64,000 nucleotides of DNA. Origin: Pelagerythrobacter rhizovicinus (GTDB lineage: Bacteria; Pseudomonadota; Alphaproteobacteria; Sphingomonadales; Sphingomonadaceae). A model generated the notes under the pieces. The model searched no databases. It saw nothing but the letters and a program-made list of their open reading frames with translations, and was not told the DNA's origin. The position numbers and the translations under genes are program-made. Numbering within the stretch: position 1 is the stretch's first letter; each line of letters begins with the position of its first letter. This document shows, in pieces, positions 27,583 through 46,930 of the stretch. The DNA lies in contig NZ_SDPV01000002.1 in NCBI RefSeq assembly GCF_004135625.1, forward strand, positions 310,001 to 374,000. Direction: 5' to 3'.

Positions 27583-28698
27583 GTGACGCAATTGCCCGGC
27601 GCAACGCTATCCCGGGTCGGCAAGAGTTTTGGCGCCGCCGTGCTGTTCGATGGGCTCGACCTGTCGGTGGGTGACGGCGAGTTCGTCGTGCTCGTGGGTC
27701 CGTCTGGTTGCGGCAAGTCGACACTGCTGCGGCTGATCGCGGGCCTCGAACGACCCGACAGCGGCGAGATCTGTATCGGCGGGCGACGGGTGGATCAGTT
27801 GCCGCCGGGCGAACGCAGTGTCGCCATGGTATTCCAGTCCTATGCTCTCTACCCGCAGATGACGGTTGCGCAGAACATCGCATTCCCGCTGCGCATGGCC
27901 GGACGGCCGCGGCCACAGCTCGACGAGAGCGTGACCAGAACGTGCGAACTCCTCGGGCTGGCCGAACTGATGAACCGCCGCCCCGCCGAGCTCTCCGGCG
28001 GGCAGCGGCAGCGTGTCGCTATCGGCCGCGCGATCGTGCGAGAGCCCGACCTGTTCCTGTTCGACGAGCCGCTCTCCAACCTGGACGCCGGCCTGCGGGC
28101 GCAGATGCGGCGCGAGTTTGCGGAACTGCACGCCCGGCTGGGCACATCGACGATCTACGTCACCCACGACCAGGCCGAGGCGATGGCGCTGGCCGACCGG
28201 ATCGTGCTGATGCGCGATGGGCGGATCGAGCAGGAAGGCGCGCCCGAGGACCTCTACTGCCGCCCAGCGACCCTGTTCGCGGCAGAGTTCTTCGGCCAGC
28301 CGCCGATCAACCGCCTGCCCGGTCGGATCCTGCGCGTCAGTGGAAGCGAAACCGAAATTGCCGTCGGTGATTGCGAAAGGATCGTGCTCGGCGCGCTCGG
28401 CACGCCGCTCGCGGCCGGAAGCGAGGTGACGGTAGCCATCAGACCCGAAGCGCTGACGGTGGTGCCGGAAGGCCATATGATCGCGCTGGCCCCGCGCAGG
28501 GTCGGATTTGTCGAGTGGTTCGGAGGAGAACGCCACGCGCGGCTCGGCACGGGCGATGCCGCGCTGGTTTGGCGCACCGCAGGCGATCGTGCGATCAAGA
28601 CCGGCGAAAGCATTCCGCTGCATGTCGCGCCGGAACGGCTGCACCTGTTCGACCGCGACGGGAAAGCCATTCCGTGCACACCATTGCCGAACTTATGA
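27583..28698 (+). CDS. Sugar ABC transporter ATPase (MalK/UgpC type)
   Basis: The 371-residue ATPase powers uptake of a sugar with the two permeases downstream. It has Walker [11 protein letters not shown] loop FQSYALYP, signature [10 protein letters not shown], Walker [13 protein letters not shown], the switch His in VTHDQAEA, and a C-terminal TOBE/OB regulatory part as in MalK. I start at GTG 27583; the frame is open to a TTG at 27517. The gene is separated from the binding protein and permease genes by lacI, an unusual order. Its stop codon lies within a LacI-type operator. Confidence 0.9.
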
Positions 28699-31008: not shown

Positions 31009-31907
31009 GCCGCACCGGTGTCGAGGCCGAGCGGCGCGCCGGGTGGCTTTTCAGCGCCCCGGCGCTGCTCGCGATCGCCCTGTTCTTCGTCCTGCCTACG
31101 ATCGCCTCGCTCGCGCTGAGCCTGACCGATTTCGACATCTACGCCCTCGCCGACATCCGTAACCTGCGCTTCGTCGGGCTCGACAACTACGCCGCCCTGC
31201 TTGCCGATCCGCTGTTCTGGACCGCGCTCGGCAACACGCTGTGGTTCGTCGTTCTCGGCGTGCCTCTGGTGATCGCCATCTCACTCGCCGCGGCGATCCT
31301 CGTCAACGAGCGCATGGTCGCCTGGCGCCCGGTCTGGCGGGTCGTCTTCTTCGCGCCCTATGTCGCGACGCTAGTGGCCGCCGCTGTCGTATGGAAGTAC
31401 CTGCTCCACACGCGCTACGGCCTCGTGAACTACGCGCTGGATACGCTTGGGTTACAGCCGGTCGACTGGCTCGGCGACCCGCGATGGGCGATCCCCGCAA
31501 TCACACTGTTCGTCGTGTGGAAGAGTTTCGGCTACGCCATGCTGATCTTCCTCGCTGCATTGCAGACGGTGCCGCGCGAACTGGACGAAGCAGCGCGGAT
31601 CGATGGTGCCGGCTGGTGGGCGCGGCTGCGCCACGTGACCCTGCCCGCGATCGCGCCCGCCACCGGTCTCGTCGCGATCTTGACGATCGTGGCCATGTTC
31701 CAGCTCTTTGCCGAGCCGTACGTGATGACCGAAGGCGGCCCGGCGCAATCGACTGTCACCGTACTCTACCTGATGTTCGAGGAAGGCTTCCAGTGGTGGA
31801 ACCTCGGGACCGGTGCGGCGGTCGCGGTCGTGCTGTTCGTCTGCATCCTCGCCGCGGCGCTGCTGCCGGCGCTCGCGATGCGTCTGTTGCACGTGCGCAG
31901 GACATGA
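31005..31907 (+). CDS. Sugar ABC transporter permease (MalF type)
   Basis: The 300-residue inner-membrane permease has six helices and the cytoplasmic EAA loop ([20 protein letters not shown]), which docks on the ATPase. It pairs with the next gene. ATG 31005 overlaps the binding-protein stop as ATGA, so translation is coupled. MalF-type permeases of this length lack the large periplasmic loop of E. coli MalF. Confidence 0.92.
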
Positions 31908-32716
31908 AGGCCGGGCACGCCATGACCGCGCTTGTCGCGCTGTTCGCGGCAATCACGCTTGCGCCGCTGCTGTGGATGATCTCGGTCAGCCTGATGCAGC
32001 CCGGCGATGCCGGCCAGTTCCCGCCGCCGCTGATCCCCGCCGAACCGACTCTCGCCAACTATCGCGAGCTTTTCGCCGCGCAGGGCATGGGCGTGTTTCT
32101 GCTCAACAGCCTCCTCGTCTCCACCCTCGCGACGCTGCTCGCGCTGCTATTCACCGTCCCTGCCGGCTACGCCTTCGCCAAGCTGCGCTTCGCGGGGCGG
32201 ACGGCCACGGTGCAGACGCTGCTCGCGCTGCTGCTGATCCCGGGACAGATCGGCATGCTGCCGCTGTTCCTCGAGCTCAAGGCCATGGGCCTCGTCAATT
32301 CCTACGCCGGCGTCCTGGTCCCGTGGCTTGCCGGGATCATCGGGATATTCCTGGTGCGGCAATTTGCGCTCTCGATTCCCGACGAACTGCTGGAGGCGGC
32401 GCGGATCGACGGCGCGAGCGAGTGGGACGTGTTCCGCCACGTCGTGCTGCCGATCCTGCGCCCCGCGGTTGCGACACTGGCGCTGTTCGTCTTCCTCGGG
32501 AGCTGGAACGACTTCATGTGGCCCCTGATCGTGCTGTCCGATCAGGACCTCTACACCCTGCCCGTCGCTCTCGCCTCGCTGGGGCGCGAACGCGCGCAGG
32601 ACATCGAATTGATGATGGCCGGCTCGGTGGTCACCACTGTGCCGGTGCTGCTGCTGTTTCTGGCGCTCCAGCGCCAGTTCATCGGCGGATTGCTTGCCGG
32701 GAGTGTCAAAGGATGA
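31904..32716 (+). CDS. Sugar ABC transporter permease (MalG type)
   Basis: The 270-residue permease has six helices and the EAA loop [20 protein letters not shown]. It is the second half of the channel with the preceding gene. ATG 31904 overlaps that gene's stop as ATGA. An in-frame ATG six codons later is less likely because of the overlap. Confidence 0.92.
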
Positions 32717-33462
32717 ATTGGGTTCGTTTGTTGCCGCTGGTCCTTCTGCTGGGGGCCTGCACCGGATACGACGCCGTCGCGGCGACGCCGCCCCCGGCGA
32801 TGAAAGCCGGGCAACACCCGCAGCCGGCGGTGGAGGAAGGCGGCTACGTCTATCAGCTTCACCTCCCGCCCGGCGTCGCGACGGCCGACGAGGACGCGCG
32901 CTGGCCGCTGATGATCTTCCTCCACGGCTCGGGCGAGCGGGGCAGCGATGTGGCCAGGATCAAGATCCACGGCCCACCCAAGGTCGCCGACCGACAGACG
33001 GACTTCCCGTTCATCCTCGTCTCCCCGCTGCTGCCGGCCGAGGAGGACTGGGACATCGCCAAGCTCGACGCGATCGTCGATCATGTCATGGAAGCGCTCC
33101 CGGTCGATCCGGCGCGGGTCTATCTCACCGGCCTCAGCCGGGGCGGCCATGCGACCTGGCGCTGGGCGGCGGCGGAACCGAAGCGCTTCGCCGCGATCGC
33201 GCCGGTCGCCGGGCGCGGCGATCCCGCCACCGCCTGCGCGCTGACGGGCACACCGGTCTGGGCCTTCCACGGCGACCGCGACGACGTGGTGACACCCGAG
33301 GGCAGCTTCGCCATGGCCCGAGCGATCCGCGCCTGTGGCGGGCATCGGAGCCGCCTGACGATCTATCCAGACCTCGGCCACAACGCCTGGGACCCGGCCT
33401 ACGACGACCCTGCGCTCTACCTGTGGCTGCTGTCGCACCGCGTCGAGGAGCAGGGCCGATGA
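32713..33462 (+). CDS. Alpha/beta-hydrolase lipoprotein, probable carbohydrate esterase
   Basis: The 249-residue lipoprotein (lipobox LGAC, C16) is a dienelactone hydrolase/feruloyl-esterase-like hydrolase. It has LHGSGERG near residues 70-77, the nucleophile S142 in GLSRGG, an acid in HGDRDD (188-191) and H223 in DLGHNAW. Such enzymes near glycan genes often remove acyl groups from sugars. ATG 32713 overlaps the permease stop as ATGA. The exact ester is unknown. Confidence 0.8.
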
Positions 33463-34811
33463 GCGGCTTTCCCGAAGGCTTCCTGTGGGGCGCGGCCACG
33501 GCGGCCTATCAGATCGAGGGCTCCCCGCTCGCGGATGGGGCGGGGGCCAGCATCTGGCACCGCTTCACCCACGACCCGCGCCTGATGATCGCCACCGGCG
33601 ATACCGGCGACGTCGCCTGCGATCACTACAACCGCATGGAAAGCGACGTCGAGCTGATGAAGCGGCTCGGGTTGCAGGCCTATCGCTTCAGCGTCTCGTG
33701 GAGCCGCGTGCTGCCCGAAGGCACCGGCCGCGTGAACGAGGCTGGGCTCGACTTCTACCGCCGCCTCGTCGACCGCCTGCTCGAAGCCGGGATCGAACCC
33801 TTGGCAACCCTCTATCACTGGGACCTGCCCGCCGCGCTCGACGACCGGGGCGGCTGGCTCAACCGCGAGAGCGCGGAATGGTTCGCGGAGTACGCCGCCG
33901 TCATGTTCGGGGCGCTCGATGGCAAAGTGAAGAAGTGGGCGACACTCAACGAGCCGTGGGTGGTGGCCGACGGCGGCTATCTCAACGGCGTGCTCGCGCC
34001 GGGCCACCGCAGCATCTTCGAATGCGCGATCGTCAGCCGCAACCTCATGCGCGCGCATGGCCGCGCGGTGCAGGCCTACCGCGAATGCGGCGCGCACGAG
34101 GTCGGGCTGGTCATCAATATCGAACCCAAATACCCGGCTAGCGACAGGCCCGAGGACCTTGCCGCCACGGCGCGCGCCGACGCCTATATGAACCGCCAGT
34201 ACTTCGACCCCGCGCTGCTCGGCACCTGCCCGGCGGAGCTCCGTGAAATCTACGGCGAGGCGTGGGAGGACTGGTCGGCCGAGGATCTGGCGCTGTGCTG
34301 CCAGCCGGTCGACTTCGTCGGCATCAATTACTACACCCGCAGCGTCGTGCGCGCGTCGGACACGGCGTGGCCGCTGTTCGCGGAACACGTCGTCCAGGAA
34401 GGGGCGCCGCATACCGAGACCGATTGGGAAGTCTTTCCCGAAGCGATGACCCGCACACTGCTCTGGTTTCGCGAGCGGTACGGCGACCTGCCGGTCTACA
34501 TCATGGAGAACGGCGCCGCCTTCTCCGATCCCGCGACCAGTGAAGCCGACGGCATTTTCGACGAGGATCGCTGCCAGTACCTTACCGAGCACATAGCCGC
34601 GGTGCGCGATGCGATCGCAGCGGGGGTCGACATCCGCGGCTACATGGTCTGGTCGCTGTTCGACAATCTAGAATGGGCGCTCGGCTATGCCAAGCGCTTC
34701 GGAATCGTCCACGTGGACTACGAGACGCTCGCACGCACGCCCAAACGCAGCGCAGCACTCTACCGCGAGATTATCGCCAGCAACGGTACCGAACTGGAGC
34801 GCGCAGCATGA
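33459..34811 (+). CDS. GH1 family beta-glucosidase
   Basis: The 450-residue enzyme is a full GH1 barrel. The N-terminal FLWGAATAAYQIEG signature, acid/base E165 in TLNEPW and nucleophile E350 in YIMENG are all present. There is no signal peptide, so it acts in the cytoplasm on oligosaccharides brought in by the ABC transporter. Likely activity is release of glucose from beta-linked glucosides; linkage is not decided. ATG 33459 overlaps the esterase stop as ATGA. Confidence 0.92.
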   Translation: MSGFPEGFLWGAATAAYQIEGSPLADGAGASIWHRFTHDPRLMIATGDTGDVACDHYNRMESDVELMKRLGLQAYRFSVSWSRVLPEGTGRVNEAGLDFYRRLVDRLLEAGIEPLATLYHWDLPAALDDRGGWLNRESAEWFAEYAAVMFGALDGKVKKWATLNEPWVVADGGYLNGVLAPGHRSIFECAIVSRNLMRAHGRAVQAYRECGAHEVGLVINIEPKYPASDRPEDLAATARADAYMNRQYFDPALLGTCPAELREIYGEAWEDWSAEDLALCCQPVDFVGINYYTRSVVRASDTAWPLFAEHVVQEGAPHTETDWEVFPEAMTRTLLWFRERYGDLPVYIMENGAAFSDPATSEADGIFDEDRCQYLTEHIAAVRDAIAAGVDIRGYMVWSLFDNLEWALGYAKRFGIVHVDYETLARTPKRSAALYREIIASNGTELERAA

Positions 34812-35674
34812 AACATCTCCTCACCCTCCTCGCCGTCGTTCTGCTCGGCGCTTGTGCGCATGTGCCGGCCGAACCCGCCGGCAGCGCGCCGATCCGCGCG
34901 ATGACGTTCAACATTCGGCTCGACGTCGCCTCCGACGGCGCAAACGCCTGGCCGCACCGCAAGGAGATGGTGGCTGCCGTTATTCGGCGCGAGGGGCCGG
35001 ACTTACTCGGCATGCAGGAGGTCCTGCTCCATCAGAAGCAGTATCTCGAAGCGGCGCTGCCCGAATACACCTTCGTCGGCGTCGGGCGCGACGACGGGGC
35101 CCAGGCAGGAGAGTTCTCCCCACTCGGCTGGCGCAATGACCGTTTCACGGCGGTGGATTCGGGCACGTTCTGGCTCTCGCCGACGCCCGAGGTGGCCGGC
35201 AGCAAGGGGTGGGACGCCGCCCTGCCCCGCATCGCGACGTGGGCTGTCCTGCGCGACCTGCGCAGCGGCGAGACGATCCGCGTGCTCAATACGCATTTCG
35301 ACCATGTCGGCATGGCCGCGCGGGCCAATGCCGCGCGGATGATCGTCCAATGGGTCGCCGCGGGCAGCGCGCCCGCGATCGTGATGGGGGACTTCAACGT
35401 CAAGCCGGGCGCCGAGCCCTACCGCATCCTCGCCGACACCGCGCGGAGCGGCCTCGCCGATTCACGCTCGATCAGCAGCCCCCCACCCTACGGGCCCCCG
35501 GGGACCTTCACCGGGTTCGACATCACGGCCGCAGCCGACGGGCCGATCGATCACATCTTCGCGACGAGCGAGTTTGCGGTGACGGGGCACTCGGTCGTGA
35601 CGCAGCATTGGGAAGGCCGGCTACCCTCCGATCACTATCCGGTCATCGCCGATCTGGCTCTGGAGGCCGAATGA
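34808..35674 (+). CDS. Endonuclease/exonuclease/phosphatase-fold lipoprotein
   Basis: The 288-residue lipoprotein (lipobox LGAC, C16) has the whole motif set of the EEP fold: MTFNIR, MQEV, NTHFDH, MGDFN and SDHYPV, which bind Mg2+ and cut phosphoesters. Secreted EEP proteins of this type are often found in glycan loci, with unknown substrate. In this locus one possibility is removal of phosphodiester substituents from a glycan. ATG 34808 overlaps the GH1 stop as ATGA. Confidence 0.82.
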   Translation: MKHLLTLLAVVLLGACAHVPAEPAGSAPIRAMTFNIRLDVASDGANAWPHRKEMVAAVIRREGPDLLGMQEVLLHQKQYLEAALPEYTFVGVGRDDGAQAGEFSPLGWRNDRFTAVDSGTFWLSPTPEVAGSKGWDAALPRIATWAVLRDLRSGETIRVLNTHFDHVGMAARANAARMIVQWVAAGSAPAIVMGDFNVKPGAEPYRILADTARSGLADSRSISSPPPYGPPGTFTGFDITAAADGPIDHIFATSEFAVTGHSVVTQHWEGRLPSDHYPVIADLALEAE

Positions 35675-37818
35675 GTCGTCTGTTAATCCTCCTGCTTTCG
35701 TCGATCCTGCTGGCGGCCTGCGCGACAGGCTCCGTTCCCCCCGGCGACCGCTTCGTCCGCGAAACGCGTGACCTGACCGAAAGCTGGAGCTTTCGCTACG
35801 ACGACGACTGGACGCCCGAAGCGGCGCTGGAGGCGACATCTTCCGCCTGGCAGCCGATCACCTTGCCGCACACCTGGAACCAGCTCGGCGAGTATCGCAT
35901 CGGTCGCACCGACGCGACCGACAACCGGCAGGGCAAGGGCTGGTACCACCGAGTGATCGATGGGCGGCAGCTCGACCCGGACAGACGTCACGTGCTCGAA
36001 TTCGATGCCGTCGGCAATGTCGCCGACGTGTGGCTCAACGGGCGGCATCTTGCCCGCCATGCGGGAGCCTTCACGCGCTTTCGTGTGGATTTGACCGGCA
36101 CGCTCGACTTCGCCGGCGAGAACGTGCTGCTGGTCCGCGCCGACAACAGCGATCCGCGACCGGGCAGCCCGACGGAGCACGTCATCCCGCTGCTCGGCGA
36201 TTTTTTTGTTCACGGCGGCATCTATCGTCCGGCGCGGCTGATCTCGGTACCGAAGAGCCACATCGACCTTGGCGACTACGGCGGCCCGGGCGTCTACGCG
36301 ACGCCACGCATGCTCGGTGACGGCAAGGCCGAGGTCGAGGTGCTCGTGCGGCTCACCGGCATTCGCGACGGGCAGGAGCTCGCGGTGGCGCTAAGCGATG
36401 CCCGGGGCAAGCTTGTGGCGGCACGGACCGTCGACCTTGGAAACGATCAGGAGGAGGCGCGCCTGACGCTCTCCGTCGCGAACCCACAGCTCTGGGACGG
36501 CCGCGCGGATCCGCATCTCTACCGGCTCGCGGCCACTCTGCACGAGAACGGCAGGACGCTCGATCGGGTCGATGAGAGTGTCGGCATCCGCACGATCCGC
36601 TTCGACCCGGATCGTGGCTTCTTTCTCAACGGCAAACACCTTCCGCTACGCGGCGTCTCCCGGCATCAGGATTACCTTGGGCAGGGCTGGGCCCTTTCGC
36701 GGGAGGATCATGAACGCGACATGGCGATGATCGCCGAGATGGGCGCCAACAGCGTGCGCGTGGCGCACTATCCGCAGGCGGAGGAGTGGTTCGACCTCGC
36801 AGACCGCTATGGAATGATCGTCTGGGCCGAGGTCCCGTTCGTCAACAAGATCAGCTTCGCCGATGCCGAGGCCGCCCCGAAACTGATCGCGAACGCGCGG
36901 ACACAGATGATCGAGATGATCCGCCAAAACTACAACAGCCCGGCGATCGTCACGTGGGGGATCGGCAACGAAGTGGACATCGATCTCGCCTTCGGTCGGC
37001 TGGGGCCGAAAGCCGACGCCCGGCCGCTGCTGCGCGAACTGAACGCGTTGGCCCACCGGGAAGATCCGACGCGGCCGACGGTGATCGCGGACTGCTGTGA
37101 GGCGACGCCGGGGGACAAGGTCGACTACCTGCCGGTGCTCACGGGCGAGTCCGATCTGATGGGCTACAACCGCTACTTCGGCTGGTACTACGGCGAGGTC
37201 GACGACCTGGGCCCCCATCTCGACATGCTGCACGCGCGCCACCCCGACGTTCCCCTGTCGATCAGCGAATACGGCGCAGGCGGCGCACTAACCCAGCACA
37301 GCGATGATCCGGAAGGGCGGCCGACCAACGTCACCGGTCGGCCCCAGCCCGAGGAATTCCAGTCCTGGTGGCACGAGCAGACCTGGCCGCAGATTCGCGA
37401 ACGTCGCTATCTCTGGGGAAGCTGGATCTGGAACATGTTCGATTTCTCCAGCCGCATCCGCAAGGAAGGCGATGCGACCGATATCAACACCAAGGGGCTC
37501 GTCAGCTACGATCGCCGGACGCGGAAGGATGCGTTCTTTTACTACAAGGCCCAGTGGAGCGACGCCCCGGTAGTGCACGCGACGTCGCGCCGCTTCGTCG
37601 AGCGGGCCGATCCGGTGACACGGATCAAGGTCTACAGCAATGCCGATCGCGTCGAGGTCGCGCTCAACGGGGAGGCGCTCGGCAGCGCGCCGTGCGTCGA
37701 CCGCGTGTGCACGGTCGAAAACGTTCGCCTCTCGCCTGGCCTGAACACCGTCACGGCGCGTGGCAACTTCCCGACCGGCGCCGTGAGCGACACGGTGGAA
37801 TGGCGGCTGGGCAGTTAG
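35671..37818 (+). CDS. GH2 family glycoside hydrolase lipoprotein
   Basis: The 715-residue lipoprotein (lipobox LAAC, C17) has the GH2 order: jelly-roll sugar-binding domain (about 30-200), Ig-like domain (about 215-310), TIM barrel (about 310-600) and a C-terminal beta domain. The acid/base is E434 in WGIGNEVD and the nucleophile E533 in ISEYGAG. GH2 members are mainly beta-galactosidases, beta-glucuronidases and beta-mannosidases; the short form here fits the first two. ATG 35671 overlaps the EEP stop as ATGA. It is the last gene of the seven-gene chain. Confidence 0.88.
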   Translation: MSRLLILLLSSILLAACATGSVPPGDRFVRETRDLTESWSFRYDDDWTPEAALEATSSAWQPITLPHTWNQLGEYRIGRTDATDNRQGKGWYHRVIDGRQLDPDRRHVLEFDAVGNVADVWLNGRHLARHAGAFTRFRVDLTGTLDFAGENVLLVRADNSDPRPGSPTEHVIPLLGDFFVHGGIYRPARLISVPKSHIDLGDYGGPGVYATPRMLGDGKAEVEVLVRLTGIRDGQELAVALSDARGKLVAARTVDLGNDQEEARLTLSVANPQLWDGRADPHLYRLAATLHENGRTLDRVDESVGIRTIRFDPDRGFFLNGKHLPLRGVSRHQDYLGQGWALSREDHERDMAMIAEMGANSVRVAHYPQAEEWFDLADRYGMIVWAEVPFVNKISFADAEAAPKLIANARTQMIEMIRQNYNSPAIVTWGIGNEVDIDLAFGRLGPKADARPLLRELNALAHREDPTRPTVIADCCEATPGDKVDYLPVLTGESDLMGYNRYFGWYYGEVDDLGPHLDMLHARHPDVPLSISEYGAGGALTQHSDDPEGRPTNVTGRPQPEEFQSWWHEQTWPQIRERRYLWGSWIWNMFDFSSRIRKEGDATDINTKGLVSYDRRTRKDAFFYYKAQWSDAPVVHATSRRFVERADPVTRIKVYSNADRVEVALNGEALGSAPCVDRVCTVENVRLSPGLNTVTARGNFPTGAVSDTVEWRLGS

Positions 37819-38006
37819 CGCATAAGCACATCGTCCCTGTCATTTCGCACCGATCGGCGTCGGCAATGTCCGCGCCAGGAGCGGCACGGCAGTCAGGGCG
37901 AGCATGCGCCCATGCGAGCGGGCCTTCCCGACCGCGCCTCTGCAAAGGCACACCGGTCCGTGCCGGACGATGGACTTGAACTTCTACGCCCCCGGGGAGG
38001 CGGCGG
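37819..38006. other. Convergent intergenic region, no gene seen
   Basis: This 188-base stretch lies between the GH2 and GH144 stops. It holds only weak dyads, for example GGCAC/GTGCC around 37948-37965. I see no strong terminator and no open frame that looks coding. Confidence 0.4.
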
Positions 38007-39521
38007 CTATTCCGCTGCCGCTCCTTCCAGCCAGCCGCCGGTGAAGCCGAGGCGCTCAAGGCCGCGACGGATATGCGGGTTCTTGCGCATCGTGCGCCAC
38101 ACCAGGCCGCTGCGGTGGTTCTCCATCATGGCGAGGATCGGGCCCTGGTCGATGCCGATGTAGTCCCGCGCGATCCAGCCGAGCTCGGGATCGACGGTGC
38201 CGCTGGGGCTGCCCGTGTCGATGAAGGTATAGCTGGGATTGAACGCGTCCTTGAAGCCGTACTTCGTGTAGAGCTTGTTGCCGTAAGCTTCGCGCATGTT
38301 CATCAATGCGTCGATCGCCACTTCGGGCGCGAAAGGCACCGAACCGCCCGTCGCGGTCGGGACGATCGTCCCGTCATCGACCACGCGCTCTTCGCTCACG
38401 CCCCGCGCGGAATAGCCCATGAAGGTCCGCGGTTTGCCATTCACCACCCGGCCGTTTGCCGCACCGGTCGGCCCGTCGGAAGCTGTCCAGCCCCAGATGT
38501 CGGCCGAGTAGCCGACCCAGTCGTTCGGATTATCAGCACCATAGGCGCGTTGGCTCAGCGTCGCGCGGCGGCTGTTCTCGAAGTAATCGATGCCCTTCCC
38601 GCGCATGAATTCGTCCTGGATGCCGCGGAAATCGACCCAGACGTGGCTGTACTGGTGCCCGAACAACGGCTCGAACTGCAGATGCTCGTAGCCGTGGTAG
38701 GTGCCCCAGTCCTTCTCCAGGTTCGCGGCCCACCCGGTATCCCAGGCGTCCTTCCCGATCGGATGCGTCGGCGATCCGGCGGCGAGGATATAGACCAGCA
38801 TGCCTTCGTTGTAGCCGACCCAGTCGTGCGTTCCGAAGTCGCCATTCTCCCCGCGCTCGGGATACCAGCCCATCGCGATCGCCTTGCCGCTGCCGCCATT
38901 GGCGGAGGGGATGTCGCTGTTCTCGCGCTGGACGAAAGTCCAGTCGACGCGGCGGTAGATCTTTTCGGCGAGATCGCGGATTTCCGATTCCACCGCAGTG
39001 TCGCGGTCGAAGTAGCTCTGCGCGAAGAGCACGCCGCCGAGCAGCAGCGAGGTGTCGACCGTCGAAAGCTCGGTCTTGCCGCGACGCGTGCCGTCTTCGT
39101 TGGTGAGAAAATGGTAGAAGAAGCCCTTGTATCCCGTGTTGCCCGAGACCTCCGCCCCCTGCGGCGCATTCCAGTAGAACTCCAGGCAGTCGCGCGTGCG
39201 CTGCGCGGCTTCCTCACGCGTAACATAACCGCGTTCGGCGCCGATGCCGTAGGCCGTCAGCGCGAACCCCGTCGCCGCGATTGAGGAGAACGGATTGCTC
39301 GGCCAGCGATCGGGCGCGAGGCAGCGCTGTGTGTCCGTGGTTTCCCAGAAATAATCGAACGTACGGCGCGAGAGCTGCTCGGCGAACTCCGCCTGCGTGA
39401 GCTGGGGCAGCGTTGCAGCGGAATTCTCCGTCACTCCGGCAGGAGGCGGCGTGGCGATAGACGTGCACCCGGCCAGCGCCAGAAGCGGCAGCGCAAGCGA
39501 TCCGAGACGGAAGGTCATCAT
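38007..39521 (-). CDS. GH144-type glucoamylase-like lipoprotein, probable endo-beta-1,2-glucanase
   Basis: The 504-residue lipoprotein (lipobox LAGC, C19) is of the glycoamylase (PF10091-type) family. It has RRTFDYFWE, AATGFALTAYGIG, GFFYHFL, STVDTSLLLGG, GYNEGMLVYILA, HQYSHVWVDFR and GIDQGPIL in the order seen in that family. Characterised members are GH144 endo-beta-1,2-glucanases. The lipobox puts it in the periplasm or at the cell surface. ATG 39521 follows TTGGGAGCT. It comes after the TonB receptor gene across a strong hairpin and is probably in its transcript. The activity is inferred from the family. Confidence 0.85.
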   Translation of the reverse strand: MMTFRLGSLALPLLALAGCTSIATPPPAGVTENSAATLPQLTQAEFAEQLSRRTFDYFWETTDTQRCLAPDRWPSNPFSSIAATGFALTAYGIGAERGYVTREEAAQRTRDCLEFYWNAPQGAEVSGNTGYKGFFYHFLTNEDGTRRGKTELSTVDTSLLLGGVLFAQSYFDRDTAVESEIRDLAEKIYRRVDWTFVQRENSDIPSANGGSGKAIAMGWYPERGENGDFGTHDWVGYNEGMLVYILAAGSPTHPIGKDAWDTGWAANLEKDWGTYHGYEHLQFEPLFGHQYSHVWVDFRGIQDEFMRGKGIDYFENSRRATLSQRAYGADNPNDWVGYSADIWGWTASDGPTGAANGRVVNGKPRTFMGYSARGVSEERVVDDGTIVPTATGGSVPFAPEVAIDALMNMREAYGNKLYTKYGFKDAFNPSYTFIDTGSPSGTVDPELGWIARDYIGIDQGPILAMMENHRSGLVWRTMRKNPHIRRGLERLGFTGGWLEGAAAE

Positions 39522-39538
39522 AGCTCCCAAAGTCAGGA

Positions 39539-39580
39539 GGGCGCCCGGTCAAGGGAGGAGGAGGGGATGACCGGGCGCCC
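39539..39580 (-). promoter_or_regulatory. 13-bp perfect hairpin between receptor and GH144 genes
   Basis: GGGCGCCCGGTCA and TGACCGGGCGCCC are perfect complements around a 16-base purine/pyrimidine-biased loop. In the minus-strand RNA the hairpin sits after the TonB receptor stop and just before the GH144 ribosome site, without a following U run. It may protect the upstream message and lower expression of the downstream gene. Confidence 0.65.
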
Positions 39581-39594
39581 GAACAGTGTGACGA

Positions 39595-42500
39595 TCAGAA
39601 CGAGAAGCCGGCGGAGAACTTGATCGTGCGGGGTGGATTGCCCCCAACGCCGAAGCCGGTCCGCTCACCATAGATCGTGGGCGAGCTTTCGGTCCGTGTG
39701 TCGTCCGCCGGATTGTTGTTGAAGTTGGTGTAGTTCCGATCGTTGAACAGGTTGATGATGTCGACCCGGAAGCGGACCCGCGACTCGTCGCTCAGAAAGC
39801 TCATTGGAATGTACTTCGTGAACGCCAGGTCCATCTGCCGCCGGCCCCAACGATCGCCATTGCCGTCCTGCCAGATGCCGACGATCGTACGTTCGAAAGG
39901 ATCGGAGAGATTGCGGAATGCCTTCATATAACGTGGTGATTCCAGCGTGAACTTCGCTGAAAGCGCAGCCTCGAACGGCAGGTCGACACTACCCGCAGCG
40001 ACGAAGCGGTGGCGCGGCACGCCCGATGAGGTCAGAACAGGATAATCTTCAATCGACGGATAATCGAGCGAGAAGACTTCGCCGTACTGACGGTTCTCCT
40101 CCGCCTCCGTATAAGTGTACGTCGCGCTAAGGCTCCAGGGCGAAGACGGCGAATAGTTCTTGGTGAACTTGAGGTAGGCGGAATCGGAGCTGGTTTCGAG
40201 CCCATTGTCGCCAAGGATCAGGTTACCGTAACCGGGAGGGCTGAAGCTCCACGGAGTCTGCGGCGTCTCGCCGGGCGCGGGGTTCGGCTGGAAGTACGAA
40301 CCGTCCGGCCGGCGGTTGCCGAGCAGGAAGACGAAGCCATCCTTGCTCTCGACGTGCGTGTACCCGGCTTCGAGTTCCACCTGCTCGAAGCGCGTGCGCA
40401 GGCCCAGGCTGAACTGGTCCGAATAGGGCATCTTCAGATCGTTGTTGATGAACCGCAGTTCACTGCCCCCGCCGGGAGTGCTCTCGGCCAGCTGCGCCAG
40501 CCCTTCCGGCGTCAGGTAGATCGGATCCCACGGAACGCAGGTCGGCGAGGGGTTGCATTCGTTGAGCGGATCGCCCGTGTCGAAGTTGAATGTGCGCGTG
40601 GTGAACGAACCGACGCTGATCTCCTGCTGGAGGAAATCAAACTGGTTGCGGTCGTAGGAACGGCCGTAGCCGCCGAACAGCACGAACCGCGCCTCCTCGT
40701 CGAGTTCGTAGCTGAACCCGACACGTGGCTGGAACGCGCCCATGAACGGCTCGCGCTCGCTGCCGGTCGAGATGTAATCGTTGATGTCGTAGTTGGCGTT
40801 CGCGAGATTCGGATAGAGAGGCTCGCCCGTAGCAGGATCGAGCGTCTGGCCCGTTACGAGATCGACGACGTCCTGATCGTGGGCGAAGTCGAGGTACGCC
40901 GGCGTCTTCTCGTAGTCCCAGCGAATGCCGAGATTGAGCGTCAGGCGATCGGTAACCTCCCAATCGTCCTGAATGTAGACGCCGAACTGGAAGTTGTCGG
41001 ATTCGATCTGCGATTCACCGAAGCCGCTCTCGTATCCGAACTGGACGCGATAGGGGATCACGTCGTTGAACGTGATACCACCACCGGGATTGAAGGCGAC
41101 GTTGTAGGTGTAGGTCGGGTTCAGGTTGTTCCGCTGAAGCGAGTTCAGCGTTACCCACTTCGCCTTTATGCCAGCCTTGATCGTGTGCCGATCGAAGCCG
41201 GTGTAGGTGAAGTCGTTCTGGATGCCCCAGCCTTCCTGCCCCTTGTTCTGATAGTTGGAGCTACCTCCCACATGGAGGAGATTGCCCCGCTCCGTTTCGG
41301 CGGGATCTTCCGCTCGGGGCGCGGCATAAGCGAACAGGAACGACGGCTCGAATAGTGCAGGCGTGGGCGCCCATTTCACGTCTTCATAAGTGAGCTTGAG
41401 GTCGTTGACCCACGTGTCCGCGCTATGCTCCCACCGCGCGGTGCCCCGCAGCTCCTCGGTATTGACGAGACTCCGCCTCGAAAGGGAGTTGATACCTCCC
41501 GCCACATTCTCGCCCGTCTCGTCACGATACTTCACTGAGAACTCGACAAGGTCGGAATCACTCGGAGAGATGTCGATCTTCCCGAAGTACAGGTTCTCAT
41601 TGAAGGTTTCGTTGGTCGTTCCGAAGGCGTCTCGATATTCCTCGGGAAAGAAGCTCGGCTCCCGCCCAAGGCCGGGGGTGATGTCCACCGGTCGCTGGAT
41701 GCGCTTGCCTTCATAAGCGACGAAGAAGTGCATGACATCCTTGATGATCGGACCACCCAGTGATCCGCCGAACTGCATGTCCTTCGTCTCGACCTTCACG
41801 CCATCGTCTTCGTATAGCTCCGACGGTGTCGGGTCGCGCAGGTCCTGGTTGGTAAAGTCGAAAAAGCCTTCACCGTGGAATTCGTTAGTGCCCGATTTGG
41901 TGACCGCGGTGATCGCGACCGAACTCACCTGATCGAACTCCGCCTTATAGTTGGAGCTAATAACGCGGTACTCGCCGATGGCGAGCTGGGGGAAGGGGTT
42001 GCCGGGCGAGGAATCCTGACCGGTGATGCCGTTCTTGAGGACGTAGTCCTTCTGTCCCACGCCATCGATGAAGACGTTGACCGTACTGCTGTCCTGTGCA
42101 CCCCCTTGCAGGCGCGACTGACCGTTGGCACCCGTCACGAACATCACGCCCGGCGCGAGGTCGGCAAAGGCCAGGAAGTTGCGGTTGTTCTGCGGAAGCT
42201 GCTCGATCAGGCGCTGGGTGATGTTGACGCCGACTTCGCCGCCTTCCATCGTGCGGATCCGGTCGGCAGTGACGAGGATTTCCCCGCCGGTCGAACCCGG
42301 CAGTTCCTCACCACCGGCAGGTGCGGTCTGCGGCGCAGCGAGATCAAAGTCGAGCACCGCGTCCTGCGCCACCAGAAGCGTGAACTGATCGGTCTGCCGC
42401 ACGCCGTCGGCCGTCGTGATCTCAAGGCGATAGATGCCGGGACGTAGAGAAGCGAATTGATAGCTGCCATCGGCGCCGACCGTGGAGATACGACGGATGC

Positions 42501-42708
42501 CGGTGTTCACCTCGATCGCGGCGACCTGCGTTACGCCTTCCACGCCCGTGATCCGGCCGCGCAGCGAGGCAGTCGATTCCTGCGCATGCGCCGGTGCGAC
42601 CATGGCGAGCGACATGGCACCGCCGGCGACGCCGAGAGCGAGCGCCGCGGCGAGCTTGCGGCCGACGCCGATGCGGGTGTTGCGGGTGCGGGATTGGGTA
42701 TGCGGCAT
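39595..42708 (-). CDS. TonB-dependent receptor with carboxypeptidase-like N-terminal domain
   Basis: The 1037-residue receptor has a long signal peptide ending AHAQ (near residue 43), a carboxypeptidase-regulatory-like beta domain (about 45-130), a plug (about 135-290) and a 22-strand barrel ending in FSAGFSF with the terminal Phe. This Oar-like form is common in sphingomonads and stands in for SusC; no SusD is present. It should carry glycan fragments over the outer membrane. ATG 42708 follows GGGGAGGAATAC. It shares a regulatory region with the divergent GH3 gene. Confidence 0.92.
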   Translation of the reverse strand: MPHTQSRTRNTRIGVGRKLAAALALGVAGGAMSLAMVAPAHAQESTASLRGRITGVEGVTQVAAIEVNTGIRRISTVGADGSYQFASLRPGIYRLEITTADGVRQTDQFTLLVAQDAVLDFDLAAPQTAPAGGEELPGSTGGEILVTADRIRTMEGGEVGVNITQRLIEQLPQNNRNFLAFADLAPGVMFVTGANGQSRLQGGAQDSSTVNVFIDGVGQKDYVLKNGITGQDSSPGNPFPQLAIGEYRVISSNYKAEFDQVSSVAITAVTKSGTNEFHGEGFFDFTNQDLRDPTPSELYEDDGVKVETKDMQFGGSLGGPIIKDVMHFFVAYEGKRIQRPVDITPGLGREPSFFPEEYRDAFGTTNETFNENLYFGKIDISPSDSDLVEFSVKYRDETGENVAGGINSLSRRSLVNTEELRGTARWEHSADTWVNDLKLTYEDVKWAPTPALFEPSFLFAYAAPRAEDPAETERGNLLHVGGSSNYQNKGQEGWGIQNDFTYTGFDRHTIKAGIKAKWVTLNSLQRNNLNPTYTYNVAFNPGGGITFNDVIPYRVQFGYESGFGESQIESDNFQFGVYIQDDWEVTDRLTLNLGIRWDYEKTPAYLDFAHDQDVVDLVTGQTLDPATGEPLYPNLANANYDINDYISTGSEREPFMGAFQPRVGFSYELDEEARFVLFGGYGRSYDRNQFDFLQQEISVGSFTTRTFNFDTGDPLNECNPSPTCVPWDPIYLTPEGLAQLAESTPGGGSELRFINNDLKMPYSDQFSLGLRTRFEQVELEAGYTHVESKDGFVFLLGNRRPDGSYFQPNPAPGETPQTPWSFSPPGYGNLILGDNGLETSSDSAYLKFTKNYSPSSPWSLSATYTYTEAEENRQYGEVFSLDYPSIEDYPVLTSSGVPRHRFVAAGSVDLPFEAALSAKFTLESPRYMKAFRNLSDPFERTIVGIWQDGNGDRWGRRQMDLAFTKYIPMSFLSDESRVRFRVDIINLFNDRNYTNFNNNPADDTRTESSPTIYGERTGFGVGGNPPRTIKFSAGFSF

Positions 42709-42810
42709 GTATTCCTCCCCATAAGCGGCCGCGCTTTCAGCACGATCCGACAAGCTGCTCACGCGGCAGGGGCCCATCGCCCACTGCCGAATCAAAATTT
42801 GCAAAGGTCT

Positions 42811-42824
42811 TGTAACCGGTTTCA
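42811..42824. promoter_or_regulatory. LacI-type operator, site 2 (receptor/GH3 divergent region)
   Basis: TGTAACCGGTTTCA is a near-perfect 14-base palindrome in the 209 bases between the TonB receptor and GH3 starts. For GH3 it overlaps a possible -35 TTGTAA (42810-42815), with TATAGC (42834-42839) 18 bases on. It can serve both divergent promoters. Confidence 0.7.
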
Positions 42825-42917
42825 TATCGCCTGTATAGCCTCCCCACACAGGCCGATTCTGGTATTCGTTCAAGAGCTACGTCCGCGGACTAGGCGGGCG
42901 GGCGCGGGGAGAGAGAC

Positions 42918-45242
42918 ATGATCAAAACAGCCCGAATCCTGCTCGCCGGCGCCGCGGCGATGGCGCTCGCCGGGTGCGCAACCGCCCAGGCTCAGCCAGC
43001 CGCCACGACCACATCCACGAACGCCGTGCCGATCAGGCAGGCAGAGCCCGAATGGGCGCGCCTCGACCCCGAGATGGACGCATTTCTCGACGAGCTGATC
43101 GCGAAGATGACGCTGCAGGAGAAGGTCGGCCAGCTCACCCTGCTGACCAGCGATTGGGAGTCGACCGGCCCCACCATGCGCGAAGGCTACAAGCAGGATA
43201 TCGCTGCGGGCCGCGTCGGCGCGATCTTCAATGCCTATACCGCCAAGTACACGCGCGAGCTGCAGCAGATGGCGGTCGAGGGCACGCGGCTCGGGATCCC
43301 TCTGCTGTTCGGCTATGACGTGATCCACGGCCACCGCACGATCTTCCCGATCTCCCTCGGCGAAGCCGCAAGCTGGGATCTCGAGGCAATCGAGAAGTCG
43401 GCGCGCGTGTCTGCGCAGGAGGCGTCGGCGGAGGGTATCCACTGGACGTTCTCGCCGATGGTCGACATCGCGCGCGATGCCCGCTGGGGGCGAATCTCCG
43501 AGGGTGCCGGAGAAGACGTTTTTCTGGGCAGCGAGATCGCGCGGGCCCGTGTGCGCGGTTATCAGGGAGAGGATCTCGGCGCGACGGACACCGTGCTCGC
43601 AACCGCCAAGCACTTCGCCGCCTACGGGGCAGCGCAGGCGGGCCGCGACTACCACACGGTCGACATTTCCGAACGCACGCTACGCGACATCTACCTTCCC
43701 CCGTTCAAGGCCGCGGTGGACGAGGGCGTTGCCACGTTCATGACCTCGTTCAACGAGTACGATGGCATTCCCGCGAGCGGCAGCAAATTCCTGCTCACCG
43801 ACGTGCTGCGCCACGAATGGGGCTTCGACGGGTTTGTCGTAACCGATTACACGTCGATCAACGAGATGGTCCCGCACGGCTATTCCAAGGATCTCGTCCA
43901 GGCCGGCGAGCAGGCTATCGACGCCGGGGTCGACATGGACATGCAGGGCGCGGTGTACATGGAGAACCTCGCCAAGTCGGTCGAGGAAGGGCGTGTCGAC
44001 ATCGAACGCATCGACGAGGCCGTGCGCCGCATCCTCGAGATGAAGTACCGCCTCGGCCTGTTCGAGGATCCTTACCGATATTCCGATCAGGCGCGGCAGG
44101 ACGCGACGCTCTACAGGCCAGACTTCCTGGAAGCCGCGCGCGACGTAGCGCGCAAGTCGATGGTCCTGCTGAAGAACGAAGGCGACGCCCTGCCGCTGAC
44201 TGCGCAGGCGCAGTCGATCGCCGTGATCGGCCCGCTCGGCAACAGCAAGACCGACATGATCGGCAGTTGGTCCGCGGCCGGCGATCGGCAGACGCGGCCT
44301 GTTACCATCCTCGAAGGCCTGCAGGCACGCGCCGGCGAAGGCGTGACCGTCGAATACGCGAAAGGCGCGAGCTACGCCTTCGAGGACGAGGGCGAGACCG
44401 ACGGCTTCGCCGAAGCGATCGCACTGGCGGAGAAGGCCGACGTGGTGATCGCCGCGATGGGCGAACGCTGGGACATGACCGGCGAGGCCGCCAGCCGCAC
44501 CTCGCTCGACCTGCCCGGCAACCAGCAGGCCCTGCTCGAGAAGCTGGTCGCGACGGGCAAACCGGTAATACTCGTCGTGCTGAGCGGGCGGCCGAACACG
44601 ATCACCTGGGCGAACGAGAACGTGCCGGCGATCCTGCACGCCTGGTATCCCGGCACGCAAGGCGGCCATGCGGTCGCGGACGTGCTCTTCGGCGACTACA
44701 ACCCGTCCGGCAAGCTGCCGGTGACCTTCCCCCGCGTGGTCGGCCAGTCGCCGATCCACTACGACATGAAGAACACCGGCCGCCCGATCGAGCTCGGTGC
44801 GCCGGGTGCGAAATATGTCTCACGCTATCTCAACACGCCGAACGATCCCCTGTATCGCTTCGGTTACGGCCTCAGCTACACGACGTTCGGCTACTCGCCG
44901 GTCACGCTCTCGGCCTCATCGATGGGACCGGAGGGATCGATCACCGCGAGCGCGACGATCACCAACACAGGTGATCGTGCCGGTGAGGAAGTCGTGCAGC
45001 TCTACGTCCGCGACCTCGTGGGTTCGGTGACACGGCCGGTGCAGGAGCTCAAGGGCTTCGAGAAGATCATGCTCCAGTCAGGTGAGGCGCGCGCCGTCAG
45101 CTTCACGCTGCGGCCCGAGGATCTCGCTTTCACCCGCGCCGACATGAGCCACGGGTGGGAGCCTGGCGAGTTCCAGCTCTGGATCGCGCCCTCCTCCGGC
45201 GCGAAGGCGAGCACGCCGGTCACCTTCACGATCACGGAGTGA
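42918..45242 (+). CDS. GH3 family beta-glucosidase lipoprotein (BglX-like)
   Basis: The 774-residue enzyme has a lipobox LAGC (C20), the GH3 N-terminal barrel with GRISEGAGED, AKHFAAYG and nucleophile D310 in FVVTDYTS, the alpha/beta sandwich (about 395-600), and a C-terminal FnIII-like domain. The layout is that of periplasmic BglX-type beta-glucosidases, which take glucose from beta-linked oligosaccharides. Linkage is not decided. It starts 93 bases after the operator and its stop overlaps the sulfatase start. Confidence 0.93.
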   Translation: MIKTARILLAGAAAMALAGCATAQAQPAATTTSTNAVPIRQAEPEWARLDPEMDAFLDELIAKMTLQEKVGQLTLLTSDWESTGPTMREGYKQDIAAGRVGAIFNAYTAKYTRELQQMAVEGTRLGIPLLFGYDVIHGHRTIFPISLGEAASWDLEAIEKSARVSAQEASAEGIHWTFSPMVDIARDARWGRISEGAGEDVFLGSEIARARVRGYQGEDLGATDTVLATAKHFAAYGAAQAGRDYHTVDISERTLRDIYLPPFKAAVDEGVATFMTSFNEYDGIPASGSKFLLTDVLRHEWGFDGFVVTDYTSINEMVPHGYSKDLVQAGEQAIDAGVDMDMQGAVYMENLAKSVEEGRVDIERIDEAVRRILEMKYRLGLFEDPYRYSDQARQDATLYRPDFLEAARDVARKSMVLLKNEGDALPLTAQAQSIAVIGPLGNSKTDMIGSWSAAGDRQTRPVTILEGLQARAGEGVTVEYAKGASYAFEDEGETDGFAEAIALAEKADVVIAAMGERWDMTGEAASRTSLDLPGNQQALLEKLVATGKPVILVVLSGRPNTITWANENVPAILHAWYPGTQGGHAVADVLFGDYNPSGKLPVTFPRVVGQSPIHYDMKNTGRPIELGAPGAKYVSRYLNTPNDPLYRFGYGLSYTTFGYSPVTLSASSMGPEGSITASATITNTGDRAGEEVVQLYVRDLVGSVTRPVQELKGFEKIMLQSGEARAVSFTLRPEDLAFTRADMSHGWEPGEFQLWIAPSSGAKASTPVTFTITE

Positions 45243-46930
45243 AGACGGTGGGTCGGCCCAGGATCGCTCTCGCCGCCGCGCTCTGCACACTGGCGCTGCC
45301 GGCATGCGCCACGCTGCCGGAGGACACTCCACGCCATGCGGCGGGACCTTCCGCGGCGCCGCAGGAAGAACGGCAGAGACCGAACATCGTGTTCATCATG
45401 TCGGACGATCACGCCTATCAGGCGGTCTCCGCCTATGGGAGCGAGATCAGCCGCCTGGCGCCCACCCCGAACATCGACCGTATCGCCCGGAACGGCGCGA
45501 TCTTCCTCAACAGCTACGTCACCAACTCGCTGTGCGGCCCGAGCCGCGCGACAATGCTGACCGGCCAGTTCAGCCACATGCACGGCTTCACCAAGAACGG
45601 CCAGAGGTTCGACAATTCGATGTGGAACTGGCCGCGGGCGCTGGGCCAGCAGGGGTACGAGACCGCGCTCTTCGGCAAGTGGCACCTCAATTATTCGCCC
45701 GAGGGTGCTGGCTTCGGTGCCTGGAAGGTGCTCGACGATCAGGGCAAGTACTACAACCCCGACATCATCACGCCCGAAGGCCGCGGCGTGGTCGAGGGTT
45801 ATGCGACCGACCTGGTCACCGACTACAGCCTCGAGTGGCTGGAAGAGGAGCGCGATCCCGACAAGCCGTTCGCGATCCTGATTCACCACAAGGCGCCGCA
45901 CCGCAACTTCATGCCCGCCATCCGGCACCTGCAGAAGTATCTCGGCACCGAGTTCCCGGTGCCGACCAACTACTTCGACCACTACGACGGTCGTCCTGCC
46001 GCCGCGGCGCAGGAAATGAATATCTACGAGGACATGTACGAAGGCCACGACCTTCACATGACCGAGGAGGTCGGATCGAGCGAGCTGCGCTTCGACCGCT
46101 GGCCCGACGATTTCGCGCGCATGACGCCCGAGCAGCGCGCCGCATGGGATGCGCGGCTGCAGGCGAACAACGACGCCGTGAACAAGGCCGATCTCCACGG
46201 CCGCGACCTCGCGCTGTGGAAGTACCAGCGCTATATGAACCAGTATCTCGCGACCGTCAGCGCCGTGGACGAGAGCGTTGGGCGCGTGCTCGACTGGCTG
46301 GAGCGGACCGGGCTCGATGAGAACACGATCGTCGTCTACACCTCCGATCAGGGTTTCTACCTCGGCGAGCACGGCTGGTTCGACAAGCGCTTCATGTACG
46401 AGGAATCGCTGCGCACGCCGCTGGTCATGCAGTACCCGGGGCACATCGCGCCGGGCACGCGAGTGGAGGCGCCGGTGCAGAACGTCGACTACGCGCCGAC
46501 TTTCCTCGATTTCGCCGGGCTGCCGATCCGCGATACGATCCAGGGCCGCTCGCTACGCGAAGTGGTCGACGACGGCGGGGCGCCTGCGGACTGGCGTGAG
46601 GACATCTATTACCACTACTACGAGTATCCCGGCTTCCATTCGGTCCGCGCGCACTACGGCGTGCGCACCGACCGCTACAAGCTGATGCGCTTCTACGGCG
46701 ACATCAACGCATGGGAGTTCTACGACCTCGCGACCGACCCCACCGAGATGCATAACCGGATCGATGACCCATCGGCGCAGGACGTCATCGCCGAGCTCAA
46801 GGGCAAGTTGGTGGAGCTGCGTGCACAGTACAAGGACAGCGACGGTCCCGCAGTGGACGACCCGTTGTCGGCGGTCGCCAAGGGGAAGCGGGACGCGCAG
46901 GCCGCTGCGGGACTTCACCACCATCATTGA
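45239..46930 (+). CDS. Type I sulfatase lipoprotein
   Basis: The 563-residue enzyme has a lipobox LPAC (C23), the metal-binding IVFIMSDDHAY strand, and the formylglycine motif C99-G-P-S-R with a following TMLTG, so it is a Cys-type sulfatase that needs a formylglycine-generating enzyme. It also has GKWHL, HKAPH and YTSDQGFYLGEHGWFDK. It resembles GlcNAc-6-sulfatase and iduronate-sulfatase-like groups. The start is GTG 45239, overlapping the GH3 stop by 4 bases (GTGA); no ATG fits. The protein ends in four His residues. Action on a phosphoester or phosphonate instead of a sulfate ester is possible for this superfamily. Confidence 0.9.
   Translation: MKTVGRPRIALAAALCTLALPACATLPEDTPRHAAGPSAAPQEERQRPNIVFIMSDDHAYQAVSAYGSEISRLAPTPNIDRIARNGAIFLNSYVTNSLCGPSRATMLTGQFSHMHGFTKNGQRFDNSMWNWPRALGQQGYETALFGKWHLNYSPEGAGFGAWKVLDDQGKYYNPDIITPEGRGVVEGYATDLVTDYSLEWLEEERDPDKPFAILIHHKAPHRNFMPAIRHLQKYLGTEFPVPTNYFDHYDGRPAAAAQEMNIYEDMYEGHDLHMTEEVGSSELRFDRWPDDFARMTPEQRAAWDARLQANNDAVNKADLHGRDLALWKYQRYMNQYLATVSAVDESVGRVLDWLERTGLDENTIVVYTSDQGFYLGEHGWFDKRFMYEESLRTPLVMQYPGHIAPGTRVEAPVQNVDYAPTFLDFAGLPIRDTIQGRSLREVVDDGGAPADWREDIYYHYYEYPGFHSVRAHYGVRTDRYKLMRFYGDINAWEFYDLATDPTEMHNRIDDPSAQDVIAELKGKLVELRAQYKDSDGPAVDDPLSAVAKGKRDAQAAAGLHHHH

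Follow-up and report, generated by a model that had tools for sequence, protein, structure and literature searches.

A sphingomonad GH144 locus with a Cys-type sulfatase, probably for growth on a decorated beta-1,2-glucan

Polysaccharide utilization loci (PULs) of marine Bacteroidetes that combine GH144 enzymes with an added sulfatase have been taken by Lapebie et al. (2019; PMC6499787) as a sign of an unknown sulfated beta-1,2-glucan that is widespread in the sea. We analyzed a stretch of 64,000 nucleotides from the sphingomonad Pelagerythrobacter rhizovicinus (contig NZ_SDPV01000002.1, positions 310,001 to 374,000; hereafter the window, to which all coordinates refer unless another contig is named), which holds a 21 kb locus (27583-48368) with a GH144 beta-1,2-glucanase, a Cys-type sulfatase, an esterase, and a phosphoesterase of the endonuclease/exonuclease/phosphatase (EEP) fold. 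Judging from its predicted gene products, we put the probability at about 0.7 that this locus allows the cell to feed on a beta-1,2-glucan of foreign origin carrying small charged or acyl groups. A cluster of Maribacter dokdonensis (GH3, 2 GH144, susCD, and a sulfatase) has the same core enzymes as the window and differs in its SusCD import, and the passage describing it does not discuss decoration (PMC8072126). The beta-1,2-glucan clusters of Streptomyces griseus and Listeria innocua share the Lin1841-like binding protein of an ATP-binding cassette (ABC) importer and a GH1 or GH3 enzyme for sophoro-oligosaccharides; the S. griseus cluster includes an esterase too, a putative acetyl-esterase, and the passages on the two clusters mention no sulfatase or EEP gene for either (PMC12369401).

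The GH144 enzyme and its sulfatase partner

The GH144 gene (38007-39521, minus strand) encodes a lipoprotein of family PF10091 that has the proven beta-1,2-glucanase XcSGL (XCC2207) as its best match in the PDB (8xul, 510 bits; the next PDB match reaches 207 bits), and its match to the endo-beta-1,2-glucanase 5gzh is 138 bits. The sugar-binding protein of the ABC importer (29752-31008, plus strand) matches 3uor first (363 bits) and second (164 bits) Lin1841, which binds beta-1,2-glucooligosaccharides (Sop3-5; PMC12369401). The original prediction, made from the letters of the window, had proposed a decorated glycan as substrate, and the identity of the GH144 enzyme together with the co-occurrence of GH144 and the sulfatase clade described below bears this out, with beta-1,2-glucan as the backbone; such a substrate is well supported. 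The P. rhizovicinus genome has no match to PF04349 (OpgG), and its PF10091 match is the GH144 enzyme itself, with no second one, so that neither OpgG nor a cyclic glucan synthase marks it as a producer of osmoregulated periplasmic glucans (OPGs). With no OpgG family and no other PF10091 protein, the genome therefore makes no such glucan by known routes; self-made OPG is unlikely as the substrate, and the glycan is probably foreign to the cell.

The sulfatase gene (45239-46930, plus strand) starts with a GTG codon that overlaps the stop codon of the GH3 gene, and its product matches PF00884 (190 bits) and SGSH_C (219 bits). Its nucleophile context, SLCGPSRATMLTG, with the motif CGPSR and the cysteine at residue 99, makes it Cys-type. 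PDB matches are 9s03 (615 bits), 7p24 (523), 5g2v (520), 7ebp (428), 9s8y (426), and 7lha (323); by name, 5g2v is a GlcNAc-6-sulfatase, 7p24 a mucin-desulfating sulfatase (which we take to be a GlcNAc-6-sulfatase too), 7lha an exo-L-galactose-6-sulfatase, and 7ebp and 9s8y just “sulfatase”. The protein has the C/S-x-P-S-R nucleophile and the D-D / D-Q metal site of these O6-sulfatases, which presumably form SulfAtlas family S1_11, and its homology to the GlcNAc-6-sulfatases is clear over the whole length.

A genome scan with this sulfatase returned at least 594 stretches, of which the best 80 were kept and 79 counted (L007, from the same genome as G291, was dropped). In a quick-method tree of 100 rows, made up of the window protein, four PDB sequences, 79 loci from the scan, and 16 from sphingomonads, the window sulfatase belongs to a clade of 52 rows (SH-aLRT 98) with Sphingomonadales, many Flavobacteriia, and 9s03. 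The characterized GlcNAc-6-sulfatases 7p24 and 5g2v fall outside this clade, 5g2v on a long branch. Among the best 80 stretches, the neighborhoods follow the clade: its 34 scan loci have GH144 in 29 cases, GH3 in 27, an esterase in 18, GH43 in 16, EEP in 12, a BD-FAE-like esterase in 12, and GH2 in 5, while the 45 loci outside the clade have none of these apart from two with EEP (thresholds in bits: GH144 100, GH3 400, esterase 70, GH2 200, GH43 150, BD-FAE-like 100, EEP 100). Counting only loci longer than 18 kb, GH144 is found in 26/29 within the clade and 0/31 outside. In two phyla, then, this sulfatase clade is tied to GH144. GH144 is missing from five clade loci, L009, L016, L017, L031, and L042, two of them (L016 and L017) on short contigs; at L009, from Stakelama flava, GH144, GH3, esterase, and EEP are all below threshold within 10 kb of the clade sulfatase.

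The clade also has a residue signature of its own. Across the 100 aligned sulfatases, D56 D57 H58, R103, K147, H149, K218, H221, D370 Q371, and K383 are kept in at least 98%, presumably for catalysis and metal binding. Thirteen further positions mark the clade (residue in at least 90% of its rows and at most 25% of the rest), including Y263, Y267, E268, H270, W288, F292, and F466. F466 is present in all clade rows and 0/48 others; it precedes the invariant His467, and its position is mostly E elsewhere. The loop 263-292 differs between the clade and the O6-sulfatases 7p24, 5g2v, and 7lha, and we read the clade-marking residues as a likely change of the sugar pocket.

Looking from GH144 instead, we found it in 70 of 396 Sphingomonadales genomes (E up to 1e-30) and the sulfatase in 17 (E up to 1e-60), all 17 sulfatases lying within about 10 kb of GH144. 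At 72 GH144 loci (71 fetched sphingomonad stretches plus the window; neighbors up to 10.5 kb away, identity floors of 40 to 60% by gene) we counted GH3 58 times, esterase 27, EEP 21, GH1 20, binding protein 20, sulfatase 17, and GH2 7. Sulfatase and EEP occur together at 16 of these loci, sulfatase alone at 1, EEP alone at 5, and neither at 50 (Fisher 7.7e-11, ignoring kinship); for sulfatase and esterase the corresponding counts are 16, 1, 11, and 44 (Fisher 4.4e-8, likewise ignoring kinship). In a genome of the window's own genus (G189, locus L089), esterase, GH1, and GH144 are present and EEP and sulfatase are both absent, as if lost together. Of 395 genomes of the class of Kordia, the Bacteroidia, 52 have GH144 (E up to 1e-40); they yielded 53 stretches (one per genome except Kordia, plus a second from two genomes), 48 of which are at least 15 kb long and have GH3 in 32 cases, esterase in 25, GH43 in 18, sulfatase in 6, and EEP in 5. 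The esterase stands at 5/6 of these loci with sulfatase and 20/42 without (p 0.19). The tie between sulfatase and EEP is strong in Sphingomonadales alone. Esterase, EEP, and sulfatase as one unit were considered and rejected, as the esterase occurs without the sulfatase at 11/27 sphingomonad and 20/25 Bacteroidia esterase loci: GH144 is often accompanied by the esterase, whether or not a sulfatase is present, and sulfatase and EEP are add-ons.

Sulfatases without a detectable formylglycine-generating enzyme

The unexpected part of the locus is the lack of a detectable formylglycine-generating enzyme (FGE). The check for this enzyme that had been proposed with the original prediction came out negative: the P. 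rhizovicinus genome has no FGE with a Cys pair and no match to the anaerobic sulfatase-maturating enzyme (anSME; TIGR03942), one or the other of which such a type I sulfatase would call for. Near the locus, a tblastn search with one FGE against the 72 GH144 stretches gave no match. Two genes of the FGE fold are present, one EgtB-like with a DinB domain (L004) and one PvdO-like (L003/L005; contig C1, about 1417414-1418180), which is split over two frames and lacks the Cys pair. The PvdO-like gene has an open copy in genome G327 of the same genus (L139), likewise without the Cys pair. PF00884 has one further match in the genome, with a Thr-type site by eye, which leaves the window sulfatase as the sole Cys-type member found.

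An FGE carrying the Cys pair was found in 8 of the 17 sulfatase genomes (G327, G236, G144, G215, G267, G202, G291, and G080). It was not detected in the other 9, which are P. rhizovicinus, seven genomes with an EgtB-like FGE-fold gene (L140-L146), and G108, the latter judged from its search row alone; of these nine, anSME was searched for in P. rhizovicinus. The FGE-less sulfatases make up 9/10 rows of one set starred in the tree, the tenth being that of G327, and 9/9 keep the extended motif LCGP[SA]RATMLTG. In four FGE-less pairs the dN/dS of the sulfatase is 0.08-0.155, compared to 0.06-0.16 in three FGE-bearing pairs and 0.09-0.15 for GH3 at the same loci; EEP evolves faster, with 0.16-0.41 in the three FGE-less pairs that carry it. 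The sulfatase is hence under purifying selection in FGE-less genomes, as far as the four pairs tested go.

There is some precedent for activity of such enzymes. The recombinant choline sulfatase of Ensifer meliloti turns over, slowly, with an unmodified cysteine, and some Cys-type sulfatases are converted in E. coli by an unidentified machinery (PMC6189696). The same source expects formylglycine to raise the rate and notes a putative FGE in E. meliloti, two points that would count against choline sulfatase as a model for activity without FGE. It is possible, though we hold it doubtful in its full extent, that there is a natural beta-1,2-glucan with O6-sulfate and O6-phosphate, probably marine, and that sphingomonads activate their Cys-type sulfatase for it without FGE or anSME, be it by an unidentified maturase or with the unmodified cysteine.

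Decorations of the glucan and rival explanations

The presence of an esterase, an EEP phosphoesterase, and a Cys-type sulfatase among glycosidases, as first proposed, is confirmed by open reading frames (ORFs), translations, and Pfam matches, the neighbors being GH1, GH2, GH144, and GH3. The lipoboxes claimed for all three, judged by eye against the consensus, are clear for esterase and EEP (LLGAC in both) and weak for the sulfatase (LPAC); Sphingopyxis-type orthologues of the three (e.g., L094, L096-L098, and L103) begin with what looks like a signal sequence and show no lipobox match. The EEP protein (34808-35674, plus strand; PF03372, 80.5 bits) has four PDB matches (3g6s, 3mpr, 4c1r, and 3l1w), two of them named “putative endonuclease/exonuclease/phosphatase”, one uncharacterized, and one a mannosyl-6-phosphatase (4c1r, 160 bits); the best, 3g6s at 195 bits, has no assigned function. 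Its homology thus extends to a sugar-6-phosphatase, and the catalytic motifs TFNIR, QE, NTHFDH, GDFN, IDHIF, and SDHYP are all present; our regular expressions recovered most of these patterns from 20 orthologues and left some unmatched. The term “phosphodiesterase”, used for this protein before, is too specific given that its sole functionally named PDB relative, 4c1r, is a monoesterase. A nuclease is not the leading idea either: the sole NCBIfam match, to exodeoxyribonuclease III, scores 23 bits where the cut-off is 99.

For the sulfatase, the D-D...D-Q metal site and the O6-sulfatase relatives speak for an O6-linked sulfate over a phosphoglycerol diester as the likely target. Both enzymes would act on O6 of a hexose, the position that carries the substituents in OPGs as well. 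Because the sulfatase has the residues of O6-sulfatases and EEP is kin to a sugar-6-phosphatase, we would favor O6-sulfate and O6-phosphate over phosphoglycerol, along with an acyl group for the esterase (32713-33462, plus strand; an alpha/beta-hydrolase, PF00326/PF02230). The locus might then work as follows. The TonB-dependent receptor (39595-42702, minus strand; carboxypeptidase-like N-domain by Pfam) would bring in glucan fragments, from which the envelope esterase, sulfatase, and EEP phosphatase would remove acyl, O6-sulfate, and O6-phosphate groups such that GH144 can cut the chain into beta-1,2-glucooligosaccharides. Outside the cytoplasm the GH3 beta-glucosidase (42918-45242, plus strand; lipoprotein of BglX type, PF00933/PF01915, NCBIfam BglX 838 bits, above cut-off) and inside it, after ABC import, the GH1 beta-glucosidase (33459-34811, plus strand; TIGR03356, 578 bits, above cut-off; no signal peptide by eye) would finish these to glucose. 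The gene set would be controlled by the LacI-family regulator (28733-29755, plus strand; PF00356/PF13377), and an optional side sugar would be taken off by the GH2 enzyme (35671-37818, plus strand; a lipoprotein carrying N-x-K). What the data show directly are the gene identities, the link of the sulfatase clade to GH144, the catalytic motifs, and the purifying selection; the bonds cut by the three ester-cutting enzymes and the origin of the glycan are inferred from these. Flavobacterial loci (L019, 6490-13555, and other clade loci) often have GH43, GH2, and BD-FAE-like esterase genes inserted in the interval from GH3 to EEP, a hint of side sugars on their substrates.

Several observations weigh against a charged or acylated beta-1,2-glucan as the substrate, or loosen the ties on which it is built. 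The Fisher value for sulfatase and EEP leaves kinship aside, and on the GH144 tree the sulfatase changes just 5 times and EEP 4 times, giving 3 to 5 independent pairs, below what a sign test needs. The identity floors left uncounted EEP matches of 35-37% at five sulfatase-free loci (L108, L115, and L117-L119) and a second kind of sulfatase (34% identical) beside GH144 in L113. In Bacteroidia, just 6/48 GH144 loci have a sulfatase, four of them clade-like (>500 bits) and two of other kinds, and EEP is not significantly tied to it (2/6 versus 3/42, p 0.11). The clade, starred in the tree, was split off post hoc, after a gradient in neighborhood scores had been noticed, and weaker GH3 and GH2 matches do occur at loci outside it. 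GH2 and GH43 at part of the loci suggest that some substrates contain other sugars. Finally, the sulfatase may have little activity, as the genome search turned up no canonical maturase.

Of the other explanations, the one nearest to the original prediction, which had seen in the three ester-cutting enzymes a tool kit for OPG substituents, is that the substrate is foreign OPG: diesters of phosphoglycerol or phosphoethanolamine would be targets of the sulfatase-fold enzyme and/or EEP, possibly with a first cut that leaves a monoester and a second one by EEP, and the esterase would remove succinyl. The backbone fits, E. coli OPG bears phosphoglycerol, phosphoethanolamine, and succinyl (PMC3818809), the joint occurrence of EEP and sulfatase in Sphingomonadales is what successive steps on a single group would predict, and esterases are common at GH144 loci of both phyla, with a putative acetyl-esterase also in the S. 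griseus beta-1,2-glucan cluster (PMC12369401). The tool-kit idea nonetheless suffers from a sulfatase that is nearest to O6-sulfatases and whose metal site is D-Q and not D-H, from the kinship of EEP, and from an esterase that comes to GH144 loci with or without the other two. D-H at the metal site is the mark of phosphonate monoester hydrolases. The PehA model is matched at 148 against a cut-off of 900, but those for arylsulfatase (209 of 481) and choline-sulfatase (166 of 433) are not reached either; and the sulfatase is present in a minority of GH144 loci (17/72 and 6/48) though OPG substituents should be common. We consider foreign OPG unlikely, and its chemistry less likely than sulfate. 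A sulfotransferase near opgG, as a producer of sulfated OPG might have, was not supported: PF04349 is present in 38/289 genomes of the one class covered, and in the 34 of these with a completeness of 90% or more, many of whose contigs are short, the nearest member of two sulfotransferase families (PF13469 and PF00685) on the same contig is about 42 kb away (by eye).

If the target were a sulfated heteropolysaccharide of algae, one bearing side sugars such as glucuronic acid, GH144 would act on a minor beta-1,2-glucan part or have another specificity. The nearest sulfatases outside Sphingomonadales, among the best 80 of at least 594 stretches, come from Flavobacteriaceae and Flammeovirga, largely marine groups; 7/7 sphingomonad GH2 enzymes carry N-x-K, a motif typical of beta-glucuronidases, and GH43 is at 16/34 clade loci. 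Yet GH144 and GH3 are near-constant partners and GH2 is at 7/72 loci, the Kordia GH2 (L019) is unmatched by the motif pattern used, and the ten locus proteins scanned with Pfam include no GH43, lyase, or fucosidase family, all of which makes this improbable. We give still less credence to the sulfatase being a functionless passenger in decay after loss of its maturase. The missing FGE and anSME in the genome and the missing FGE in 8 more sulfatase genomes would fit, and a recent loss of FGE would give the same picture of selection; against this stand dN/dS values like those of the adjacent GH3 and of FGE-bearing pairs, the motif kept throughout, and the spread of the nine FGE-less genomes over several genera.

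Locus layout and relation to known systems

The remaining genes complete the importer and its surroundings. An ABC transporter ATPase of UgpC/MalK type (27583-28698, plus strand), recognized as an ORF with DNA similarity to rhizobial-plasmid ugpC genes, adjoins LacI in 19/71 sphingomonad GH144 stretches (e.g., L087, L088, and L094). The permeases of MalF type (31005-31907, plus strand) and MalG type (31904-32716, plus strand) are ORFs that overlap their neighbors and have orthologues beside GH144; the plus-strand genes overlap at their ends all the way from the LacI regulator through GH2. Downstream of the sulfatase, a major facilitator superfamily (MFS) sugar transporter of GluP/FucP type (47079-48368, plus strand; profile matches) is a tentative member. 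The G+C content is 0.63-0.69 in 2-kb steps and dips to 0.595 at the TonB receptor gene, relatives of the locus lie in Sphingomonadales, and PHROGs and plasmid searches added nothing decisive on it. An ARAGORN call of tRNA-His (anticodon atg) at 27512-27589, before the ABC ATPase, is probably false, and seven related loci have no tRNA there.

Our limited literature search turned up nothing to the point on 9s03, on sulfated cyclic or beta-1,2-glucans, or on mannosyl-6-phosphatase, and the texts it reached mention no Proteobacteria or EEP genes for GH144-sulfatase loci. Within that scope, the locus is the proteobacterial form of a known but still unsolved system, whose decorated glycan seems not yet to have been isolated. 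New are the occurrence in Proteobacteria, the signature residues, the pairing with EEP, and the failure to detect an FGE in 9/17 sulfatase genomes. A second phylum with other import machinery has kept the same sulfatase clade with GH144, and the phosphatase and esterase narrow the chemistry of the glycan; the signature helps to find more such loci, the enzymes could be used to fish out the glycan, and the FGE-less genomes are a place to seek another route of sulfatase maturation.

The closest structural counterpart is PDB 9s03, a “Putative sulfatase” of the window's sulfatase clade whose entry name states no activity. It is all but identical to a Mariniflexile fucanivorans protein (L032); 9s03 has Ser at the nucleophile position in place of the Cys of L032, and the L032 gene adjoins GH144, GH3, and esterase. 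The O6-sulfatases 7p24, 5g2v, and 7lha have the nucleophile motif and metal residues in common with the window sulfatase and belong to a separate clade. Compared to the PULs that Lapebie et al. describe (PMC6499787), the combination of GH144 and sulfatase is common to both, and in the Bacteroidota loci of our scan the GH144-linked sulfatase is of the window's clade. The sphingomonad locus differs from these PULs by a single GH144, a GH1 enzyme, and a TonB receptor plus sugar ABC importer; a Pfam scan of 10 of its 14 proteins showed no SusD family, hence no SusC/SusD pair of Bacteroidetes type, and the sphingomonad version has EEP adjoining the sulfatase in 16/17 loci.

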